Shown here in pieces: positions 1 to 32,513 of a DNA stretch of 64,000 bases. The notes below the pieces were generated by a model. The model did no database searches and was not told the DNA's origin. It saw nothing but the letters and a program-made list of their open reading frames with translations. The DNA comes from Bacteroidota bacterium (GTDB lineage Bacteria > Bacteroidota > Bacteroidia > Bacteroidales > VadinHA17), in assembly GCA_011049175.1 (NCBI GenBank), contig DSCJ01000025.1:1-64000 (forward strand), given 5' to 3'. Position numbers and translations under genes: made by a program. How positions within the stretch are numbered: position 1 is the first letter of the stretch; every line of letters starts with the position of its first letter.

Positions 1-40
1 AGTTTTTCCATAAAAGCATCAGCAGCCAAAGGGTTTTTTG

Positions 41-93
41 CATGCTTTTTTGCCCCCAAAAAAGCATGTCGCTCCGTTTCGGGAACGGAGCGA
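41..93. repeat. Two back-to-back hairpins: catgctttttt/aaaaaagcatg (41-51/58-68) and tcgctccgtt/aacggagcga (69-78/84-93)
   Basis: Perfect 11-bp and 10-bp inverted repeats with 6- and 5-nt loops, directly abutting. Confidence 0.7.
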
Positions 94-250
94 AACACCG
101 GCCGGCGGGATGAATATATCAAAAATAAAAGTTGCAAGAACGGATTTATGTTTCATCTGACAAGTGATGGCTATCTTTCTGTCATTGATTGAACCACTGT
201 ATTATGTGAAATCCTTTATTAAAGAATTGCGAAATTGTGGATGCAGATAG

Positions 251-286
251 CTACGTAGTTATCTACGTTGTTAACTACGTAGATAT
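251..286. repeat. Three tandem imperfect 12-mers CTACGTAGTTAT-CTACGTTGTTAA-CTACGTAGATAT
   Basis: Read directly; units 1 and 3 also form an 11-bp inverted repeat (251-261/272-282). Confidence 0.8.
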
Positions 287-299
287 ATTTATATGTTAA

Positions 300-2477
<2,178 letters not shown>

Positions 2478-21486: not shown

Positions 21487-23346
21487 TCAGGCAGTGACAG
21501 TTTCTCCAGCAAGGTACCGGCTGATGCCCTGGGCAGCAATTTTGGCATCGGCAATGGCTGTTACAGCATCCATATTCGTATTCACGATATCCCCGCCGGC
21601 AAAAACTTTCGCGATCGATGTCATACCGTTTTCGTCAACGCTCAGCTTCTTTCTTTGAGTAAATTTCAACTTGTTGAACAACTCTTCAGGAATGAATGAA
21701 AAATCTGGATATTGTCCGATGGCTTCAATGATCATATCACCTTCCATAAACATCTCTTTATTTTCATGGAAAGCAGGCGCAAACCGACCCTGCTCATTGA
21801 ATACCGATTTCACTTTCCTGCAAAGAAGACCTTTGATTTTGCCAGATTCATCAACCACCACTTCTTTCGGGCCCCATGCCGGATGAAACTGAATATTTTC
21901 TTCCCGGGCTTCTCTGATTTCTTCTTCTGTAGCCGGCATTTCGCCCCAGTCTTCAAGTGACACCGTTTTGACCGCCGTTTTCTCACCGGGATACTGTATA
22001 TGCTGCAGTCTCAGTGCCTCGCGGGCTACATCAAGGGCTACATTACCACCACCTATGACAATAATTTGCCTGCCCACTTTCCATGGCTTTCCAATCTTGT
22101 TATCTGTCAGAAATGCCAGAGCCAGCACACATTTTTCATAATTTTTCACCTGCGTGGAACGGCTTCTGGTATATCCGGTGCCCAGGAATACCGCATCGTA
22201 TTCTTTCAGCATGTCTTCAAACAAAACGTCCTTCCCAACGCGGGTATTGAAGAAAAACTCAACCCCGAGTGAACGGATATAATCCACATCCCTGTCGATG
22301 CTTTCCAGCGGCAAACGATACGCCGGAGGGCCTGTTCTCATGGTTCCCCCACCCCCGGCCAAAGCATCATAAACCCCTACTTTGTGTCCGCTCAGCCTTA
22401 GAAAGTATGCCACCGATAAACCAGCCGGACCGGCACCAATCACAGCAACCTTCCGCCCGGTAGCTGGTCCGGGGTTCAATTCCAGGGTAGTTTTAAAATC
22501 TTTCACAGTATCGGCTGCATATCTTTTCAACCAGCGGATAGATAAAGCCTCACCCCGGATGCTCAATGAACAGGCCTTTTCACAATGGGCCATACATACC
22601 CTGCCGCAAATGGATGGTATGGGATTATCTTCATATATTTTCTTGAGGGATTCCTCAGGTTTATCTTCAAAAATGGCATGGATATAATCGGATATTTTCA
22701 GATGGGCCGGGCAGGCTTCCTCGCAAAGCCGGCATTCCAAACACCGGGCTGCTTCCTTTCGCGCCTCTTCCCGGTCATACCCTATGATATGTTCAATAAA
22801 CGAAAGCATTCTTTCTTCCGGCGGCACTACAGGCATGGGAACCCTTTCAGGTTCGAACAGTGAATATTTCAGATCGGAAACAAAACCGTCATAATCTTTC
22901 CGGCGGTGAGACAGACTGGCTTTCAGAACAGAATATTCGTTCGTCGGGAAATATTTTTCCGGTTCCGTATGCTCATTTTTCGGTACAAAAACAAAGGTGT
23001 CGGGGTCAAAATGAATATGGAAATAATCGCGGGTTAGTTTCAGCGAACCAGGCGGACAGATATCTATGCATAAACCACAGAAGCAGCATCTTCCATAATC
23101 GATCCGGGGGCGTTTGTTCGTTTTTCCCGGTTCAGATACGAGCTCCGGGATTTCGATCATTTCTATGGCCTGGTTCGGACATATGTCGGCACAGTTACCG
23201 CATCCTGTACAGGTTTCCCAGTCGTTTACATGAAACCCCCTGTATCTCATGGCCGGCTCTTTCAATTCGAAAGGATACCTCAGGGTTTTCGGTTTGGCAA
23301 ACAGGTACTTAATGGCCTTGAATGGTTTCAGTACGCTCTGGCTCAT
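21487..23346 (-). CDS. NuoI-like ferredoxin domain fused to GltD/NfnB-type FAD/NAD(P)H oxidoreductase
   Basis: CTGCGNCADICP, CCFCGLCIDICP, then CLECRLCEEACP, CGRVCMAHCEKAC, GAGPAG (FAD) and GGGNVALD (NAD(P)H). Confidence 0.93.
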   Translation of the reverse strand: MSQSVLKPFKAIKYLFAKPKTLRYPFELKEPAMRYRGFHVNDWETCTGCGNCADICPNQAIEMIEIPELVSEPGKTNKRPRIDYGRCCFCGLCIDICPPGSLKLTRDYFHIHFDPDTFVFVPKNEHTEPEKYFPTNEYSVLKASLSHRRKDYDGFVSDLKYSLFEPERVPMPVVPPEERMLSFIEHIIGYDREEARKEAARCLECRLCEEACPAHLKISDYIHAIFEDKPEESLKKIYEDNPIPSICGRVCMAHCEKACSLSIRGEALSIRWLKRYAADTVKDFKTTLELNPGPATGRKVAVIGAGPAGLSVAYFLRLSGHKVGVYDALAGGGGTMRTGPPAYRLPLESIDRDVDYIRSLGVEFFFNTRVGKDVLFEDMLKEYDAVFLGTGYTRSRSTQVKNYEKCVLALAFLTDNKIGKPWKVGRQIIVIGGGNVALDVAREALRLQHIQYPGEKTAVKTVSLEDWGEMPATEEEIREAREENIQFHPAWGPKEVVVDESGKIKGLLCRKVKSVFNEQGRFAPAFHENKEMFMEGDMIIEAIGQYPDFSFIPEELFNKLKFTQRKKLSVDENGMTSIAKVFAGGDIVNTNMDAVTAIADAKIAAQGISRYLAGETVTA

Positions 23347-23366: not shown

Positions 23367-24464
23367 TTACCGGTCAATTTCCGGTGCTGTGATATACAAA
23401 CTGATCATGATATTCCCAACATCCGCAATGCTTTCATTCTCCAGGGCTTTTTCCAGAATGGTCAGACCATGGCTGTATGAGGGTGTTCGGAAGTGTGCCC
23501 GGCAGGGTTTGTCTCCCCCGTCACTTACCAGATACAGGCCCAGTTCGCCCCTGGATGACTCGCAGCGAACATACACTTCGCTTTCGGGTATCTTCCATTT
23601 GAACGGATTGGGAATACGCTGATATGCTTCTCCTTTTGGTAATTTATCGAGCAACTTGAAGATCATATGGACACTTTCGATCATTTCATCGCGTACCACC
23701 CATATTCTGGAATAGGCATCTCCATCGGTCCGTACAGGGATTTCCCAATCCACCTGATCATAGGCGGCATAGGGTTCTGTTTTCCGGATATCCTTTTTCA
23801 TACCGGTGGCCCTAAGAACCTGTCCCACGGCTCCCATCCGGCAGGCGTCTTCTCTGCTCAGCTTCCCCACTCCATGAGCTCTTTCATAAAAAAGGCGGTT
23901 GTGAAAAAAGGTGTCGTCATAATCCGGCACACAGCTCCCGATGGTATGGAGGGTGGAACGGATCCTTTCCTCAAAGCCTTCGGGAAAATCACGCCTAACT
24001 CCGCCGGGCCACAGATAAATATGGTATACCCGTCCCCCGGTCAGTTCTTCGAAAAGGTCAAGGATCAGATCGCGGTGGTACATAGCCCAGTTGGCTACCG
24101 TATCAAAACCAAGCATATTGGCATAAGCCCACAATCCAAACAGATGTGAGCCCACCCGGGCCAGCTCGAGGTAAATGCTCCGGATAAACTGTGCCCGTTC
24201 AGGAACCTCTATTCCGGCCAGTTTTTCCACGGCCATGGCATACATCAGTTCCATATGATCGGGTTCCACCACATTGATACGGCATACCAGCGGAAAATTC
24301 TGGATCCAGGTACGTTGTTCCATGAGCTTTTCAAATCCGCGATGCAAAAAGCCCGGATTGGCTGTGGCTTTAACGATCCGGTCTCCTTCTACCTGAAGGG
24401 TAATGCTGAAGTTGCCCACCATGCCCAGGTGCTGGGGACCAAAATACAGTTCAAGTTCCCTCAT
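23367..24464 (-). CDS. NuoD / hydrogenase-large-subunit-like (Mbx/Mbs-type), NiFe ligands absent
   Basis: YFGPQHLGMVGNFSITLQVEGDRI, HRGFEKLMEQRTWIQ; RINVVEPDH where hydrogenases have RICGLCSH; no C-terminal DPCxxC. Confidence 0.92.
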   Translation of the reverse strand: MRELELYFGPQHLGMVGNFSITLQVEGDRIVKATANPGFLHRGFEKLMEQRTWIQNFPLVCRINVVEPDHMELMYAMAVEKLAGIEVPERAQFIRSIYLELARVGSHLFGLWAYANMLGFDTVANWAMYHRDLILDLFEELTGGRVYHIYLWPGGVRRDFPEGFEERIRSTLHTIGSCVPDYDDTFFHNRLFYERAHGVGKLSREDACRMGAVGQVLRATGMKKDIRKTEPYAAYDQVDWEIPVRTDGDAYSRIWVVRDEMIESVHMIFKLLDKLPKGEAYQRIPNPFKWKIPESEVYVRCESSRGELGLYLVSDGGDKPCRAHFRTPSYSHGLTILEKALENESIADVGNIMISLYITAPEIDR

Positions 24465-24979
24465 GTTCTTCCTTTTTTGTCATCCACAAAAGGAATCTGG
24501 TCAAAAACATCCTTCACATATTTTCTTGTGTCGAAATCTTTTCTGAAGGGGGGGATGTCGTATTCCCTTTCCAGGAATAAAGGGGTCAGTCGGGGATGCC
24601 CCCTGAACAATATCCCGTAAAGCTCGTGCAACTCGCGTTCATACGGGGAAGCATTCCCAAAAATTTCGGTGGCTGTATAGAATTGCGGATTCTCCCGGGG
24701 TATCGTTGTCTTGAGCAGAATATTCAGCTTCTGCATGGCGACATCTCCACCATATGATGATAAAATATAAACCAGTTCCAGTACATTGTCGTTTAACCGG
24801 TCGACGCATGATATCAGGGCCAGGTGATCAAATCCCGTTTTCTTCAGAAAACTCAGCATAGTAATGACCGCTTCTTTTCGGCACTTTACGGTCATGCGGT
24901 TTTCACCGTCCCCCTCCGTCGATATACTCTCGAACATACTCCGGAGTTCATCCTGCAACTTTTTCCCTGGATTTTTCAT
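24461..24979 (-). CDS. NuoC-like (30 kDa) subunit
   Basis: ASPYERELHELYGILFRGHPRLTPLFLE; start refined to MKNPGKK at 24979. Confidence 0.9.
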   Translation of the reverse strand: MKNPGKKLQDELRSMFESISTEGDGENRMTVKCRKEAVITMLSFLKKTGFDHLALISCVDRLNDNVLELVYILSSYGGDVAMQKLNILLKTTIPRENPQFYTATEIFGNASPYERELHELYGILFRGHPRLTPLFLEREYDIPPFRKDFDTRKYVKDVFDQIPFVDDKKGRT

Positions 24980-25553
24980 TTTCTTCCTCTTTTGAAAACA
25001 GGGGAGGCCATTCCAGCTCCCCAAGAATTTTTTCCTGATTACGCCGGTACTTCGCATAATGCTCACGGTATTTCAGGTAACCCGTTGCCATTCCCTTATC
25101 GATCAGGGTCCATAAATGGGTAACTGCAACGAATACTGCTTCGGGTCGGGGCATACATCCAGCAATCCACCCGTCTACCGGAATGTATTTATCCAGGTGC
25201 TTGATGGTATTGTACGAATCCCAGTACATGCCCCCGTTGATGGGGCATGAACCGAAACCTACCGTATATTTGGGCTCCGGCATTTGTTCATAGGAGCGAA
25301 TAATGTACCGCAATGTCTTTACCGACACATAACCGGTAATAAGAAACAGGTTTGCCTGGCGCGGGGTTGCCACGGGAATAACGCCAAAACGCTCCGCATC
25401 CCAGCGGGTAGTAATGGTAGGTGGTATTTCAATAATGCCGCAACCCGTGCAGAAATACAGGGCATGAAGAGAATATTTCTGCCCCATGTTCCCGGGCGAT
25501 TTGAACCATTTTCCAATGTTATTTCTATCCATCTTTCCGCTTTTTTTCGTCAT
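24948..25553 (-). CDS. NuoB / small hydrogenase-type subunit
   Basis: LYFCTGCGIIEIPPT, GSCPINGGMYWDSYNT, GCMPRPEAVF; ATGA overlap with nuoH-like stop. Confidence 0.92.
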   Translation of the reverse strand: MTKKSGKMDRNNIGKWFKSPGNMGQKYSLHALYFCTGCGIIEIPPTITTRWDAERFGVIPVATPRQANLFLITGYVSVKTLRYIIRSYEQMPEPKYTVGFGSCPINGGMYWDSYNTIKHLDKYIPVDGWIAGCMPRPEAVFVAVTHLWTLIDKGMATGYLKYREHYAKYRRNQEKILGELEWPPLFSKEEENEKSREKVAG

Positions 25554-26449
25554 GAAGTGGTTACCCAAACAATGATCAAACCAATAAATGCAAGCAAAGC
25601 CGGCCATCTCCAGAGGTATCTCACAGCCTGCTCTATCCTGAAACGAGGCCATACTGCATGAACTACCTGAAATACCATAAAGGCCAGCAACAGTTTGATC
25701 AGAAAATAACCCGCATTGCTTCCGCCTCCCATAAACAGGTTCACAAACAGTGAAAGACCGATATAAATATTGAATGCATGCTGAAGGGTGGCAAATGCCA
25801 GGAATTTACCCCCGTATTCGGCCATAGGCCCCGATGAGATCTCCTGAGGGGCCTGAATCATCTCAAACGGCCGAATGCCCATAATAGCCGGCATGATCAA
25901 CAGGTAGGCCAGCCCCGATACTACCAGGGGAAGCTGTACCAGTGACCATCCCGCTTGTATCTGGGTTTCCACAATATCAACTATGGAAACCGTACGGTAA
26001 TAGGTCATCAACGAAAGCAGAATCATTAACAAAGACAATTCGTATCCGAAAGCCAGCTGCATTTTTCGGGAAACCCCGATACTGGCATGCGGATTGGCCG
26101 ATTCCCCTGCGCTAAGGGCAATTCCCAGAGGAGCAATCAGCATCAGGTACAAAATTACCAGCAAACCACCCGAACCACTCAGAGGACATATCCCTCCGAA
26201 CGGAAGAAATAACACCACTACCACCGATCCGGTGAGTGAAAAAATCATGCCTGCATCGAACAGTTTCCCGTGGCTTACGGCTGTCTGACTGAACCATTTG
26301 ACTATATCGATAAAAGGCTGGCTGAGGGGAGGTCCGTAGCGCCAGTGTATTCTTGCCGTTACCTTCCGGGACAAACCGATCAGGAACAGACCCACCAGAC
26401 AGGCCAGTATACTGACAAATAAAATCTGCAATACGAGTACCATTACCAT
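25550..26449 (-). CDS. NuoH-like membrane subunit
   Basis: ARIHWRYGPPLSQPFIDIVKWFSQ, GIRPFEMIQAPQEISSGPMAEYGGK. Confidence 0.93.
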   Translation of the reverse strand: MVMVLVLQILFVSILACLVGLFLIGLSRKVTARIHWRYGPPLSQPFIDIVKWFSQTAVSHGKLFDAGMIFSLTGSVVVVLFLPFGGICPLSGSGGLLVILYLMLIAPLGIALSAGESANPHASIGVSRKMQLAFGYELSLLMILLSLMTYYRTVSIVDIVETQIQAGWSLVQLPLVVSGLAYLLIMPAIMGIRPFEMIQAPQEISSGPMAEYGGKFLAFATLQHAFNIYIGLSLFVNLFMGGGSNAGYFLIKLLLAFMVFQVVHAVWPRFRIEQAVRYLWRWPALLAFIGLIIVWVTTS

Positions 26450-28299
26450 ACCTTCCAGTATAATTGTATAAAAATCAAAATTGCCAGAAACAGAATGATA
26501 TACAGGGCATAATTCCCCACATCTCCCGTATATATTCGCCGGATGCCGTTCCCCGCGTTCCTGATTCCACGCGCCAGCGCTGAATAAAAATTGTCGGCTA
26601 TGTCTTTCAGATATGGAGCTATCATACGGGTAAGAGGATCATAAAATTTCACCGAATACTGGTATCTGTCAGCCGGAACGGGTGCACCGGCAGCATAATT
26701 ATCCATCTGATCTGCCCGGGTGTTTTTCGGTCCCATCCGGAAGAAAAGCCAGAGCACAATACCTCCCAAAATCAAGGCTGTAGCAATATTCAGCATCTGA
26801 ATGGACCCTGAACCTGTAACCACTCCCCACATATTGATCGCCAGCGGTTCCATTCCGAAACCAAGCTCCGACAAATTGATCACATGCAGGGGCAGCCCCG
26901 GAAGAACGCCGAACACGAACACGGTCAGGGAGAGAAATATCATGGGGACCTTCATGGAAACAGGTGCTGCCTGAAGCTTCTCATATTTCCGGGGAAGCTG
27001 ACCCAGGAAAATATGATGGATCAGTTTGTAACTGTACAGGATAGTCCCCCAGGTTCCCAGGAGCGCCACAAAAGCCAGAAAAGGGGAATGGTTAACAATC
27101 AATGTATGATATATGAGCCATTTCGACACAAACCCGTTGGTCAGTGGCACCCCGATCAATCCGCAAACGCCGATCAAACCGGCAACAAATGTCACCGGCA
27201 TTTTCTTGATCAGCCCGCCCAGTGAATTCAGGTCACGTACTCCGTTCGTGCGAAATTCCACCGCACCCACTACCATGAACAAAAGCGATTTAAAAAGAGC
27301 ATGGTTGAAAAAATGGAGCGTCCCTCCCGAAAGACTTTCACTGGTACCGTATGCAATCCCCAGAATGATATATCCCGCCTGTGCTACTGTTGACCATGCC
27401 AGTAATCTCTTGGCATCGTCCTGGAACAGGGCAATGAAAGTGGGAATAAGGATGGTAACGGCTCCCAGTAACAGAAGCAGATTTCTGACATTGAACAGAG
27501 CGTGTCCCAGATTCACAAAAACCTGGACCTGGATGATACCATATATCAACAGGATAAAACCGAAGGTGCCAATCTTGATCAATACTCCGGAAAGTACAGC
27601 ACTGAACGGAGATGGTGCTTCGGAATGTGCCGGAGGAAGCCAGACATGCAGGGGCCATATGGCATTTTTTATTCCGAAGGCGACAAAAAACAGGATGAGA
27701 ATAAACTGTAAGTAGCCGGAGGAAGCCGAATTCAGGCTCCCGGAAATACCTTCAAATACCAGAGTGCCGGTCTGCGTATACAGGGAAATCATACCCACAA
27801 GCATGGCAAGGGAACCGGCCACCGACATCACAATGTATTTCATGCCTGCAGCAATGGCTTTCCCCCTGTTGTAGCTGATCAGCAGAAATGTGCTCCAAGA
27901 CATCATTTCCCAGAAAATATAAAAGGAGAGAAAATCACCCGACAGCACGATCCCGATCATGCTGAAGATCACCAGCAGCATCATGAAATAGAAAAAATCC
28001 GTTCTGCCTTTTTTTCTGATATAGAGCCATGAAAAGATCACAGCACACAAACCCACCACCGCAATGGTCAGGGCGAAGATCCAGGCAAAGGGATGGATGC
28101 TCAATACCATCGGAAAATCCAGGAACCCCGTATACAGAGTGGCCGTGGAAGACTTTCCATACAGGGATGTAATACCGGCTGTTGCAAACAGCAAAACCAG
28201 AACAGCCAGAATATCCCTTGCTCTTTTCGATATTTTCCCCAACAGGTAAGTGAGCAGAGACCCTCCGAAAAAAACGGCTAGAAGAATTTCCAGTTTCAT
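26443..28299 (-). CDS. NuoL/MrpD-like antiporter subunit (second copy)
   Basis: Multi-TM; WPLHVWLPPAHSEAPSPFSAVLSGVLIKIGTFG. Confidence 0.93.
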   Translation of the reverse strand: MKLEILLAVFFGGSLLTYLLGKISKRARDILAVLVLLFATAGITSLYGKSSTATLYTGFLDFPMVLSIHPFAWIFALTIAVVGLCAVIFSWLYIRKKGRTDFFYFMMLLVIFSMIGIVLSGDFLSFYIFWEMMSWSTFLLISYNRGKAIAAGMKYIVMSVAGSLAMLVGMISLYTQTGTLVFEGISGSLNSASSGYLQFILILFFVAFGIKNAIWPLHVWLPPAHSEAPSPFSAVLSGVLIKIGTFGFILLIYGIIQVQVFVNLGHALFNVRNLLLLLGAVTILIPTFIALFQDDAKRLLAWSTVAQAGYIILGIAYGTSESLSGGTLHFFNHALFKSLLFMVVGAVEFRTNGVRDLNSLGGLIKKMPVTFVAGLIGVCGLIGVPLTNGFVSKWLIYHTLIVNHSPFLAFVALLGTWGTILYSYKLIHHIFLGQLPRKYEKLQAAPVSMKVPMIFLSLTVFVFGVLPGLPLHVINLSELGFGMEPLAINMWGVVTGSGSIQMLNIATALILGGIVLWLFFRMGPKNTRADQMDNYAAGAPVPADRYQYSVKFYDPLTRMIAPYLKDIADNFYSALARGIRNAGNGIRRIYTGDVGNYALYIILFLAILIFIQLYWKVW

Positions 28300-29768
28300 G
28301 GGATAATGCTTTTAATGAAACCCGGGCGGTCGAGCAATTCCAGGGCAGATGCATCCAGCAGGTCTGTGATCAGTGAAGGGTAAATACCCAGAACAATGAT
28401 CAGGCCTGTAAAAAGAAAAATGGGGACAAGACGGGAAAAGGCAGCCGGGGCCCTTTCCCTGTCTGGCAAATCATCCCCGGCAAAATAAAGCACCTGTACC
28501 ACCCTGAAGAAATAAGCCCCTTCAATCACGGTGGCTATCAGAATAAAACCCAGCAGAATAAGCGTTAGCATCTGACCGTCATGCAAAGCAGCTTTCAATA
28601 TCATAAACTTGCCCGGGAAACCCATAAAAGGGGGCAAACCCACCATAGAAAAAGCCCCGATAGTAAAAGCCAGTGAAGTAAAAGGCATGGTCTTCCCCAT
28701 TCCCTTAAAAGAAGCTATTTCCATCGATCCCGTCCGGGTAATCATGTAACCGGCAGCCAGAAACAACAATGCTTTTCCCAGGGTATGGCTGGCCAACTGA
28801 AAAAATCCTCCTGTTATTCCCTGAGTTGAAGCCAGGGAAAAAGCAAAAACCAGCAGACCGATCTGTCCGATGCTTGAAAAAGCAAGCATTCTTTTAATGT
28901 TGTCCTGACTGAAAGCACAGAGCTCGCCGATCAACAGGGTCAGGACTCCCAGCACCAGGAAAAAACCCATCATGTTCGAAATCCCGAAGAGGGTAAATAC
29001 TACACGGAGTACAGCATATAACCCTACTTCAATGGCTATCCCCGACAGCACAGCGCTGATGGTGGTGGGAGCCGAAGAATGGGCATCTGGAAGCCAGGCA
29101 TTTAAAGGGAATAGTGCAGCTTCCACACCAAAACCTGTAATAAACAGCACCAGGGGTACATAAACGGAAACGGGCTGCACAGAATGAATACGACCGGCTA
29201 TATCGGCCATATTCAATGTGCCAAACTGCCCGTAAAGAAGCCCTATCCCAATCAGGATCAATCCCGATCCCAGACTTCCCTGGATAAGGTATTTAACAGC
29301 CGATTCTATGCCGGCCCGGTTGCCCAGGTATGCCACCAGCGAATAGGAAGCAAGACACAGGATCTCAAAAAACACAAAAAGGTTGAAAATGTCGCCTGTC
29401 AGCACCACCCCTGTCGCTCCGGTGAGTTGCAGCATATACAGAATATGATACCTGTCCTCGTATTTCTCCTTTACAGGATGAAATGCATAAACTGAAACCA
29501 GAAATCCTACCAGGGCAATAAGAACAACGAACAACATTCCTACGGGACCGGCAACCAGATTTATTCCCATAGGGGGAATAAATCCCCCGATGTGAACGTG
29601 AACCGGATGATCCATTACCACAGGAATCAGCCTCAGGGCAAAAACCAGATTGAACAGAAAAGCCAGGGCAGGGACAAACCGGATAATCTTTTTGGAAATA
29701 TATTTCAGCAGCGGAATGGCAAAAGCCAGACCCAGCGGAACCACAATAAAAAGTACCGGATTTACCAT
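28296..29768 (-). CDS. mrpD: Na+/H+ antiporter subunit D
   Basis: FPLNAWLPDAHSSAPTTISAVLSGIAIEVGLYA. Confidence 0.93.
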   Translation of the reverse strand: MVNPVLFIVVPLGLAFAIPLLKYISKKIIRFVPALAFLFNLVFALRLIPVVMDHPVHVHIGGFIPPMGINLVAGPVGMLFVVLIALVGFLVSVYAFHPVKEKYEDRYHILYMLQLTGATGVVLTGDIFNLFVFFEILCLASYSLVAYLGNRAGIESAVKYLIQGSLGSGLILIGIGLLYGQFGTLNMADIAGRIHSVQPVSVYVPLVLFITGFGVEAALFPLNAWLPDAHSSAPTTISAVLSGIAIEVGLYAVLRVVFTLFGISNMMGFFLVLGVLTLLIGELCAFSQDNIKRMLAFSSIGQIGLLVFAFSLASTQGITGGFFQLASHTLGKALLFLAAGYMITRTGSMEIASFKGMGKTMPFTSLAFTIGAFSMVGLPPFMGFPGKFMILKAALHDGQMLTLILLGFILIATVIEGAYFFRVVQVLYFAGDDLPDRERAPAAFSRLVPIFLFTGLIIVLGIYPSLITDLLDASALELLDRPGFIKSIIP

Positions 29769-30121
29769 CTCTGTTCTTTTATTTTTCTCAAATTAATGGT
29801 GCCATAGTGTGCATAGATTTTGATAGCCAGAATCACAGCCAGGGCCAGTACGGCCACACCGATTACAATGGCCGTCAGAACCAGCGCCTGCGGAACCGGA
29901 TCGACCATTTTTCCGGCATCCAGACCGGATTTTGAAAACACGGGGGCGGTCCCTTCACGCAGATAACCCACGGTAATCAGGAAAAGGTATATTCCCGTAT
30001 CAAATATGCTGAACCCGATAATGACTTTCATCAGGTTCTTTTTAACCAGGATAATATACAATCCGATGATGATCAGACTAAATGCACCTATATAATATGT
30101 ATATTCACTCAGAAAGTTCAT
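29762..30121 (-). CDS. mrpC: Na+/H+ antiporter subunit C (NuoK-like)
   Basis: FSIFDTGIYLFLITVGY and DPVPQALVLTAIVIGVAVLALAVILAIKIY. Confidence 0.92.
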   Translation of the reverse strand: MNFLSEYTYYIGAFSLIIIGLYIILVKKNLMKVIIGFSIFDTGIYLFLITVGYLREGTAPVFSKSGLDAGKMVDPVPQALVLTAIVIGVAVLALAVILAIKIYAHYGTINLRKIKEQRW

Positions 30122-30803
30122 CAGTATTCTCTATTAAATGATCAATAATGCCGGCCAGTTCAGAACCCACCTTCAGTCCGACCGCCAGGTAGATCAAGGG
30201 AATGATCCCGGCACTTATCAGGGTTCCGGCTTCTCCTAAGGGAAGGAAATTGAAGAGAAAATCCCCGCCAATCAGCAGGCCGGTAACTCCCAGAAGGATA
30301 AACAGCAAGCCACCCAGAGATTCCAGTCCACGGCTCAGGTTTTCCCTGATCCTTTTTCCCCTGCATCCCAGGTACATCAGCAGAAAGGCGGAAGCCACAA
30401 CGGCACCCCCCTGAAATCCTCCGCCGGGGGTCAAATGACCATGGATAACAATGTACGTCCCTACCAGCAGGATCACTGGGAACAAAAACCGGCAACCCGT
30501 GTACACAATCAGGCTGGCCGGCTCGATAACAGGATGGGTTTTCTTCCTCCGGACCAGTCCAATTACTGCGCCCAGGCCCATGGCAGCGGTAAAGAGAACG
30601 GTCACTTCTCCCAGAGTATCAAACCCTCTGTAGCTCACCACCACCGCCGTCACAATATTTGTGGCCCCGGTTTCCTTTACCCCCTCACGAATGAAATGAT
30701 CACCCATTCTTTCTCCCGGCTCGCCAAAAGGGATCTGGCTGATACTCATAAACAGGCCGGTGGCCACAATACCCAGGAGAATGATACTGATCAGCTTTCT
30801 CAT
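30105..30803 (-). CDS. mrpB: MnhB/MrpB-domain subunit
   Basis: YIVIHGHLTPGGGFQGGAVVASAFLLMYL. Confidence 0.92.
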   Translation of the reverse strand: MRKLISIILLGIVATGLFMSISQIPFGEPGERMGDHFIREGVKETGATNIVTAVVVSYRGFDTLGEVTVLFTAAMGLGAVIGLVRRKKTHPVIEPASLIVYTGCRFLFPVILLVGTYIVIHGHLTPGGGFQGGAVVASAFLLMYLGCRGKRIRENLSRGLESLGGLLFILLGVTGLLIGGDFLFNFLPLGEAGTLISAGIIPLIYLAVGLKVGSELAGIIDHLIENTDELSE

Positions 30804-31039
30804 TCTTCAAATCGTTTGGTTCGTTTAACAGCAATCACAAAAATTCCGGTTACCAGCGCCGCCCCGATGGCTGCCTCGGCCATAGCCACATCGGGAGCCT
30901 GCAGCAAATAGAACAAAACAGCTGCTATGAGGCTGACAATACAGGAAGCGATAACCGCATTCATCAGATCCTTGAATAAAGCAGCCGCAATGGCCGATGC
31001 GATCATTAACAATACAAGTATGCCTGCGATGATTTCCAT
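30800..31039 (-). CDS. Small MrpA-C-terminal/MbhD-like (DUF4040-type) subunit
   Basis: LMNAVIASCIVSLIAAVLFYLLQAPDVAMAEAAIGAALVTGIFVIAVKR. Confidence 0.88.
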   Translation of the reverse strand: MEIIAGILVLLMIASAIAAALFKDLMNAVIASCIVSLIAAVLFYLLQAPDVAMAEAAIGAALVTGIFVIAVKRTKRFEE

Positions 31040-31041
31040 GA

Positions 31042-31368
31042 TTATTTCTGTTGTCCGGTAAATTCGTCTGTTTTATCCACCACACTTTTTTCGTACAATG
31101 AGATCCGTTTCTTCCGGGACGCCCTGCCCAGAGCATGACTCGATACCGGATTGGAAACCAGTACAAAAATCGCAATGATCAGCGTTTTCCAGAACCACTC
31201 CGGCTGAACTACCCCCACTCCGATGATGGTCAGAAAACTTCCCAGGGTAGTACATTTTGTTCCTGCCTGGATCCGGTTATACACATCAGGCATCCTGTAA
31301 ATACCTATGCTGCCGATCAGCAAAAAGGCAGCTCCTATACCTATCAGGATCATTCCGAATATTTCCAT
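31042..31368 (-). CDS. mrpG: Na+/H+ antiporter subunit G
   Basis: GAAFLLIGSIGIYRMPDVYNRIQAGTKCTTLGSFL. Confidence 0.92.
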   Translation of the reverse strand: MEIFGMILIGIGAAFLLIGSIGIYRMPDVYNRIQAGTKCTTLGSFLTIIGVGVVQPEWFWKTLIIAIFVLVSNPVSSHALGRASRKKRISLYEKSVVDKTDEFTGQQK

Positions 31369-31370
31369 GT

Positions 31371-31622
31371 CTAAATTCCTTTTTCCAGATACCGGGCAAT
31401 GGCAATCAGCCCCACAAAAGAGATGATGGAATACACCAGCGACACATCCAGGTAAACGTACCTGTCGAAGAATAAACCCAATAATACCAGCAAAGCTACC
31501 GATACCGTGGTGGCCGTATCCATGGCTATGGCCCGGTCAGCCATGGTGGGTCCCAGCACCATCCGGAGGATACAGATCAACAAACCGGCACAGATGATAA
31601 ATATAAAAATCGTTATTGCCAT
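31371..31622 (-). CDS. mrpF: Na+/H+ antiporter subunit F
   Basis: LRMVLGPTMADRAIAMDTATTVSVALL. Confidence 0.92.
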   Translation of the reverse strand: MAITIFIFIICAGLLICILRMVLGPTMADRAIAMDTATTVSVALLVLLGLFFDRYVYLDVSLVYSIISFVGLIAIARYLEKGI

Positions 31623-31697: not shown

Positions 31698-31988
31698 TTA
31701 TTTCTTCTTCACGTGGGTAACCAGGTCCTTCACCCAACTGTCCAGCACTTTGTAACATACCATATTCCCTTCCCTCCTGCTTTCGATAATCCCGGCATTT
31801 TTCAGGATCTTCAGATGCTGGGAAATGGTAGACTGGGGAATGTCCAGGTTCTGCTGGATCTGGGTCACATTGCATTCGTTTTTTATTAGCCCGTCCACAA
31901 TCTGCAGGCGGGTTGGATGCCCCAGTGCCCTTAAACATTCTGCCAGCTGATCAATGCTTCTTTCCACCATGTTCTTGATTCTGATCAA
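31698..31988 (-). CDS. ArsR/SmtB-family winged-helix regulator
   Basis: LRALGHPTRLQIVDGLIKNECNVTQIQQNLDIPQSTISQHLKILKNAGIIESRREGNMVCYKV. Confidence 0.92.
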   Translation of the reverse strand: MIRIKNMVERSIDQLAECLRALGHPTRLQIVDGLIKNECNVTQIQQNLDIPQSTISQHLKILKNAGIIESRREGNMVCYKVLDSWVKDLVTHVKKK

Positions 31989-32513
31989 TTATTGAAAAAT
32001 GATTCGCAAATATCTTTCAAACCTTTCACCGATCATTCTGGTAGCTTCTTCCACGTTATCAGTCTTTACATTGATCCAGTGGATAAGCAAACGATCGTCT
32101 TCTATGTCGAGTGTAAATGTGCCCGGTGTAAGGGTAATGGAATTGGCCAGGATCAGTTTGGCCAGATCCTGTTTCAGCCCGGTTTTTATGATCACAATCC
32201 CAGGCTTTATTGGCATTTTGGGATGCAATACCCGGTATGCCACATCCAGGTTGGCCAGAATAATCTCTTTTAACAGAACCACCGCATACAGAAGGGAATA
32301 ACCAATTTTTTTCAGACCCGGAATTGGCGGGAAACCTGCTTTCTCAAAATTCCTGTATAACAAAAGAGAAAGAACAAGGCTCACAGCAAATCCGGCAATC
32401 AGTTCGGGAGGACTCAGGCTCCTGGTAAGAGCCATCCATATCGTCATCAGGATCACAAACAAATAAATGAAGTTCACGGCAGGGTGCACGTGTATTTTTT
32501 CTTTCTCTTTCAT
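31989..32513 (-). CDS. mrpE: Na+/H+ antiporter subunit E
   Basis: LANSITLTPGTFTLDIEDDRLLIHWINV. Confidence 0.92.
   Translation of the reverse strand: MKEKEKIHVHPAVNFIYLFVILMTIWMALTRSLSPPELIAGFAVSLVLSLLLYRNFEKAGFPPIPGLKKIGYSLLYAVVLLKEIILANLDVAYRVLHPKMPIKPGIVIIKTGLKQDLAKLILANSITLTPGTFTLDIEDDRLLIHWINVKTDNVEEATRMIGERFERYLRIIFQ

Follow-up and report, generated by a model that had tools for sequence, protein, structure and literature searches.

Gene content of the locus

The stretch of DNA analysed here, referred to as the window, comprises 64,000 nucleotides of a Bacteroidales genome (G000). Its minus strand carries an uninterrupted reading frame of 619 codons, which had been reported in a first-pass annotation without mention of the strand. 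The annotation had described the product as a natural fusion of a NuoI-type ferredoxin subunit with a GltD-type flavoprotein, and the six motifs on which this description was based were all found in the translation: the NuoI-type 4Fe-4S pair (CTGCGNCADICP and CCFCGLCIDICP), the GltD-type iron-sulfur region (CLECRLCEEACP and CGRVCMAHCEKAC), and the FAD (GAGPAG) and pyridine nucleotide (GGGNVALD) sites. Pfam agreed with this assignment, with two Fer4 domains at approximately residues 42-100, Fer4_20 (the DPD/GltD iron-sulfur domain) at 183-282 (9.9e-27) and Pyr_redox_2 (pyridine nucleotide domain) at 299-600 (8.6e-26). When the fusion protein alone was submitted to AlphaFold, one confident model was obtained (pLDDT 88.2, pTM 0.85).

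The same fusion is present with 93% identity in the sister genome G001, and a search of relatives revealed full-length copies in further Bacteroidales genomes. In total, the protein was found at full length at 50 distinct loci besides the window. Because the fusion is kept in G001, in other Bacteroidales and in many phyla, an artefact of frameshift or assembly join is excluded and the fusion is indeed a natural one.

The fusion gene closes an operon that begins with mrpE (Table 1). No nuoE, nuoF or nuoG gene was found in this operon, in line with the earlier proposal that the fusion replaces NuoEFG.

Table 1. Features of the operon and of the fusion protein, in operon order (window positions)
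Feature	Position	Strand	Remarks
MrpE-like	31989..32513	minus	First gene of the operon
ArsR-family regulator	31698..31988	minus	Between mrpE and mrpF
MrpF-like	31371..31622	minus	
MrpG-like	31042..31368	minus	
MbhD-like small membrane protein	30800..31039	minus	79 aa
MrpB-like	30105..30803	minus	MbhE and MnhB domains
MrpC-like	29762..30121	minus	
MrpD/MbsH-like, antiporter-like pump subunit	28296..29768	minus	490 aa; E138, E219, K393 kept; K250 replaced by Glu
MbsH'-like, antiporter-like pump subunit	26443..28299	minus	618 aa; E128, K217, K248, H336, K399 all kept
NuoH/MbsM-like membrane subunit	25550..26449	minus	Assigned by Pfam/NCBIfam profiles
NuoB/MbsJ-like subunit	24948..25553	minus	CTGCG...GSC...GCMPRP (MBS-type proximal cluster); start at 25553 is our choice
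NuoC-like subunit	24461..24979	minus	Start at 24979 is our choice; longest ORF runs from 25066
NuoD/MbsL-like large subunit	23367..24464	minus	365 aa; no [NiFe] cysteines; no quinone Tyr87/His38; MbsL C85, C385 replaced by N, T
MbsN/NuoI-GltD fusion	21487..23346	minus	619 aa; motif, Pfam, NCBIfam, PDB and AlphaFold comparisons
NuoI/MbsN-like part of the fusion	residues ~1-120		Two 4Fe-4S motifs, C46-C56 and C87-C97; linker after
GltD/NfnB/StnC-like part of the fusion	residues ~167-615		Two 4Fe-4S clusters, FAD, NAD(P)H
K274 (in IRWLKRY)	22525..22527	minus	Ligand position of the 4Fe-4S cluster next to FAD; codon counted from start 23346
S463-L464-E465	21952..21960	minus	In place of the NADP-phosphate-binding Y-R-R of NfnB; codon counted from start 23346

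The second gene of the operon encodes an ArsR-family protein, for which the nearest specific model was the sulfur-sensing repressor BigR (65 bits, below the cut-off of 155). Besides the window, a regulator of this family adjoins the operon at two loci only (L017 and L062), and it was seen only in the window's own clade; in both of these relatives the ECNV and (V/T)CY cysteines are kept. The ArsR protein is possibly a sulfur-responsive switch of the operon.

Family membership and operon linkage

The architecture is not a new fusion type, since it is modelled at full length by the NCBI family PRK13984 (NF010590; 611 positions, named 'putative oxidoreductase') and has a member above the curated cut-off in Thermotoga maritima. 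Residues 3-615 of the window protein matched positions 9-609 of the 611 of this model, i.e. end to end, with 708 bits, which is below the curated cut-off of 946 bits. PRK13984 is thus the closest family and has the same architecture, and the window protein falls outside the NCBI equivalog definition.

Among the 14 named control genomes, only that of T. maritima yielded a full-length PRK13984 match. Research on T. maritima goes back decades, and its PRK13984 gene is presumably TM1217, located within the mbx operon. This 13-subunit MBX operon is induced by S0 (4.36-fold for mbxA), and the complex was drawn by the authors as ferredoxin-driven (PMC9431562). In the literature searched, we found no biochemistry of any family member; as far as we found, the fusion is known as a modelled family and is uncharacterised.

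When a species-level genome collection was scanned, fusions were found in Spirochaetes, Cloacimonadota, Fermentibacteria, Halanaerobiales, Izimaplasma/Tenericutes, Neomarinimicrobiota, Melioribacter, Delongbacteria, Aminicenantes, Stahlbacteria and alpha-, beta- and gammaproteobacteria. In all, more than ten bacterial phyla hold the fusion together with the same operon. Within Bacteroidota the fusion is rare (2/297 sampled genomes).

The first-pass annotation had proposed a survey of the NuoI-GltD architecture for association with Mrp/Mbx genes, and had held that homologues always standing away from Mrp or Nuo genes would speak against its proposal. The reverse was observed. A nuoD-like gene directly precedes the fusion at all 46 loci having at least 1.2 kb of upstream sequence, and all ten scored Mrp/Nuo operon genes are present at 26 of the 27 loci with at least 9.3 kb upstream, the sole exception being L035, where nuoB was undetected. 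Furthermore, 15 genomes of the 60 relatives contain an MBS-type nuoD gene, and all of them carry the fusion except G020 and G034, in which nuoD lies at a contig end.

Since the homologues always occur inside an operon of Mrp and Nuo-like genes, it is very probable that the subunit at the NuoI position receives its electrons directly from the attached NAD(P)H module, as had been claimed. The fusion protein almost certainly belongs to the membrane complex. Two other identities were rejected: a stand-alone oxidoreductase, because every full-length homologue with upstream sequence adjoins nuoD, and a glutamate synthase subunit, because the operon has no GltB-like gene. A search of plasmids with the fusion returned distant AegA-type matches only.

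The fusions of two Spirochaetes (L032, 748 aa, and L068 from Rectinema, 759 aa) have an extra C-terminal extension of about 150 residues, for which no Pfam match was found.

Type of the host complex

The subunits of the window operon were compared with all PDB chains. The NuoB-like subunit scored 216 bits with 6u8y_J and 123 bits with the best complex I chain; for the NuoD-like subunit, the corresponding values were 344 bits (MBS) and 234 bits (complex I). The best PDB matches of the two pumps were 6u8y_H and 6u8y_X, and the N-terminus of the fusion matched 6u8y_N (MbsN) ahead of any NuoI. Judged from these similarities, the host complex resembles MBS/MBX and not complex I, so that this part of the first-pass annotation, which had implied a membrane complex of the complex I type, has to be revised.

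The Pyrococcus furiosus MBS (6u8y) is the closest solved relative for the NuoB-, NuoD-, pump and NuoI-like parts, and has in common with the window the three-cysteine motif and the Mrp module. As in MBS/MBX, two pump subunits accompany an Mrp-like module in the window operon. The charged residues of the pumps are largely kept across the family. K250 (MbsH numbering), which belongs to the central charged axis of one pump, is replaced by Glu in 5/39 sequences, among them those of the window clade.

In P. furiosus, the proximal cluster of MBS is held by C28, C93 and C123 of MbsJ, C25, freed by a shortened loop, being no ligand; C25 is dispensable for activity, and so are MbsL C85 and C385, the mutants of which are active (PMC7684303). 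Among the operons with the fusion, C28 and C93 occur without exception (46/46) and C123 is found in all 45 readable rows, including the window, while the C25 position is occupied by Gly in 30 of 46. The tandem cysteine of complex I, found in 10/10 complex I-type controls, is absent from the family except in row L060 (CC after C25), and the window has none. The proximal cluster of the window complex would therefore have three Cys ligands, if its geometry follows that of MbsJ. MbsL C85 and C385 vary in the family, and the clade formed by the window, G001, L062 and L079 has lost both (N, and T or V), unlike the P. furiosus enzyme.

Complex I (NuoA-N) has a common ancestry with the window operon for the B, C, D, H, I and pump subunits, and both this relationship and the operon layout would fit an NADH:quinone oxidoreductase, i.e. 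a variant of complex I that has the GltD module in place of NuoEFG and quinone as the acceptor. However, the position of the quinone-site Tyr87 is occupied by Val in 49/49 NuoD-like proteins of the family and His38 is kept in only 2 of 49, whereas each residue is present in 13/13 complex I-type controls; the window has V at both positions. Together with the missing tandem cysteine of cluster N2 and the far closer relation of NuoB and NuoD to MBS, this makes quinone a very improbable acceptor. The window operon thus differs from complex I by the lack of NuoEFG, of the quinone-site residues and of the tandem cysteine, and by the presence of the MbsN-GltD fusion.

A [NiFe] hydrogenase was also rejected, because the NuoD-like subunit is devoid of the [NiFe] cysteines: neither the L1 nor the L2 CxxC of the four-cysteine pattern was found. 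By contrast, the same genome contains elsewhere (L109, contig C27, 8753-18768) a genuine group 4 [NiFe] hydrogenase operon, in which RICGIC and DPCYCC are kept and which includes Mrp-like genes, a stand-alone NuoI and a maturation protease.

A further feature sets the window complex apart from MBS. The P. furiosus MbsN is a stand-alone protein of 208 residues and the complex uses ferredoxin, whereas the MbsN part of the window carries a 450-residue NAD(P)H module. As MbsN is fused and not stand-alone, the window complex was filed as an MBS-like variant and not as MBS. MbsN lies on the ferredoxin side of the P. furiosus complex (PMC7684303), and P. furiosus Mbx was once described as a ferredoxin:NADP oxidoreductase (PMC6349859). 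On such a model, the complex would act as an Rnf-like ferredoxin:NAD(P)+ oxidoreductase, with ferredoxin docking on the NuoI part and electrons flowing to FAD and NAD(P)+. We regard this as very unlikely, since electrons would skip the proximal cluster and its chamber, i.e. the coupling site of the membrane arm, whose residues are conserved.

An archaeal operon (L090) encodes a stand-alone NuoI of 190 residues with no GltD part within the available sequence. This arrangement is consistent with a later addition of the NAD(P)H module to a complex that was originally fed by ferredoxin.

Coenzyme motif, proposed electron path and direction

The closest solved folds to the AlphaFold model were NfnI-L, NfnABC, StnC and GltD. 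StnC (from the Stn transhydrogenase of Sporomusa) and NfnB/NfnI-L share with the fusion the GltD-type domain, the two 4Fe-4S clusters, the FAD and the nucleotide site; StnC and NfnB differ from it in being soluble, NADP(H)-linked (YRR) proteins, and the window operon is without a bifurcating partner. K274 of the fusion aligns with the Lys ligand K170 of StnC (numbering checked on the close relative 9bov), at a position where NfnB has Glu (Pf E126). Lys was observed at this position in 52/52 sequences, and the Glu ligand of NfnB in none. The FAD of StnC was reported to be non-bifurcating (PMC10482914), so the shared Lys ligand suggests plain electron input at the flavin and not bifurcation.

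The proximity of the fold to NfnI-L could also be read as a sign of an NfnB-type bifurcating enzyme, in which NAD(P)H would feed high- and low-potential acceptors at the FAD, and the Arg at the position of NfnB R201, which tunes the NfnB FAD, is kept in the fusion. Nevertheless, StnC also has this Arg, which is thus uninformative on bifurcation, and besides the Lys ligand the operon contains no NfnA-like high-potential partner; we give bifurcation hardly any weight. Plain entry of electrons from NAD(P)H into the complex through the fusion is, in our opinion, highly probable.

The coenzyme motif divides the family into two types: YRR is found in 21 and [S/C/A]LE in 30 of 51 fusions, the window having SLE. 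The two types are parted by a single branch (100% SH-aLRT) in a fusion tree built by a quick method with the motif columns kept in, so that tree and split partly depend on each other. A precedent is provided by DsrL, which is, like the fusion, an iron-sulfur GltD-type flavoprotein, and which serves a sulfur enzyme: the YRR enzyme is strictly NADP(H)-dependent, while non-YRR forms (S/T-L..-E being allowed) prefer or require NAD(H) (PMC7596348). DsrL differs from the fusion in being soluble and in having the sulfite reductase DsrAB as partner and no ion pump. By analogy with DsrL, the SLE motif predicts that the window copy probably uses NAD(H) and not NADP(H), a choice that the first-pass annotation had left undecided.

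In the StnC-like protein encoded by the same genome, YRR is retained. Locus L027 (contig C11, 5355-11420), to which it belongs, has genes for a NuoE-like protein, a HydB-like protein and a 1232-residue GltD/NuoG/FdhF-like protein, which correspond to an StnABC-type transhydrogenase. Beside them lies a Psr/DMSO-reductase-like molybdopterin operon (L027, 14080-17916).

The reading that we prefer, with moderate confidence, is that the products of the window operon form a single NADH-linked, ion-translocating S-S (polysulfide) oxidoreductase of the MBS/MBX type, which might run in either direction. In the reductive sense, NADH would deliver a hydride to the FAD of the fusion, from which electrons would leave singly, first by way of the GltD-like part with its two 4Fe-4S clusters and then by the two clusters of the NuoI part, to reach the proximal cluster in the NuoB-like subunit. 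The iron left open by the three Cys ligands would lie in a chamber to which the NuoD-like subunit contributes, and could there bind and cleave polysulfide or a different S-S acceptor. The energy of turnover would power both antiporter-like pumps as well as the Mrp module (H+ export, Na+/H+ exchange). The complex is likely to be ion-translocating; S-S chemistry at the proximal cluster, to which the conserved cysteines point, is a somewhat better than even proposition. Several observations stand against the preferred reading, namely the loss of MbsL C85 and C385 in the window clade (both dispensable in P. furiosus), the Glu at pump position K250 and the published drawing of T. maritima MBX as ferredoxin-driven (PMC9431562); moreover, the energetics would be marginal for pumping with NADH.

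The textbook potentials of NADH (about -320 mV, standard) and polysulfide (about -260 to -275 mV) are similar, which would place the reaction close to equilibrium, and for this reason an NAD(H)-type complex could run either way. NADP(H)-type relatives would have more driving force for sulfur reduction than the NAD(H) type. The same hardware may thus operate in the opposite direction, as a sulfide-dependent NAD+ reductase in which the ion gradient lifts electrons from sulfide or polysulfide to NAD+. All proteobacterial members are of the NAD(H) type and several are symbionts that oxidise sulfur or belong to Sedimenticola. In addition, NAD(H)-type DsrL goes with sulfur oxidation (PMC7596348), and a putative Mrp-Mbx complex of the tubeworm symbiont Endoriftia is expressed together with the reductive TCA cycle (PMC11636981). 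However, members from Spirochaetes and Tenericutes are also NAD-type, and the window host is an anaerobe-like Bacteroidales whose Psr/DMSO-type reductase and group 4 hydrogenase suggest a reductive life. A complex dedicated to reverse operation is therefore possible but rather unlikely here.

A broader formulation, which we advance only tentatively, is that bacteria possess a class of MBS complexes linked to NAD(P)H, which comes in two coenzyme types: the NAD(H) type (window, proteobacterial sulfur oxidisers) would run in reverse, from sulfide or polysulfide to NAD+ at the three-cysteine cluster, and the NADP(H) type would conserve energy from sulfur reduction.

No description of the fusion as such or of an NAD(P)H-driven MBS was found in the open literature, although subscription papers may hold an earlier one. 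Nor did we find, within the open literature searched, the proposal of an MBS-type complex that exists in two coenzyme types and has the fusion as its conserved subunit for electron input. In the same sense, the division by coenzyme, the evidence for an MBS-type site and the one-to-one linkage to the operon are new. If the preferred reading is true, MBS-type sulfur respiration would be neither solely archaeal nor solely ferredoxin-driven, and more than ten bacterial phyla would have a version working on the NAD(P)H pool. Among the descendants of the ancestor of hydrogenases and complex I, the fusion would represent a second route to NAD(P)H input besides NuoEFG. The YRR or xLE motif would offer a simple rule for the coenzyme, and perhaps for the direction, in uncultured bacteria of sediments and symbioses. 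As T. maritima can be cultured and its family member lies above the cut-off, the question is testable in that organism.

In the tree, the window fusion forms a group with 'bacterium GMC4.maxbin2.282' and a Stahlbacteria MAG and is separate from two further groups from Bacteroidales, so that Bacteroidales contain at least three distinct lineages of the fusion operon. One Bacteroidales genome (G009) holds both an NAD(H)-type and an NADP(H)-type operon (contigs C33 and C41; L019 and L024). The presence of these lineages, two of them in a single genome, suggests that the whole operon moved by horizontal transfer.

Finally, GltD-type modules were also observed within operons of the complex I-like type at L072 and L073 (NuoB-D-H-GltD...), where the same module was apparently recruited separately.
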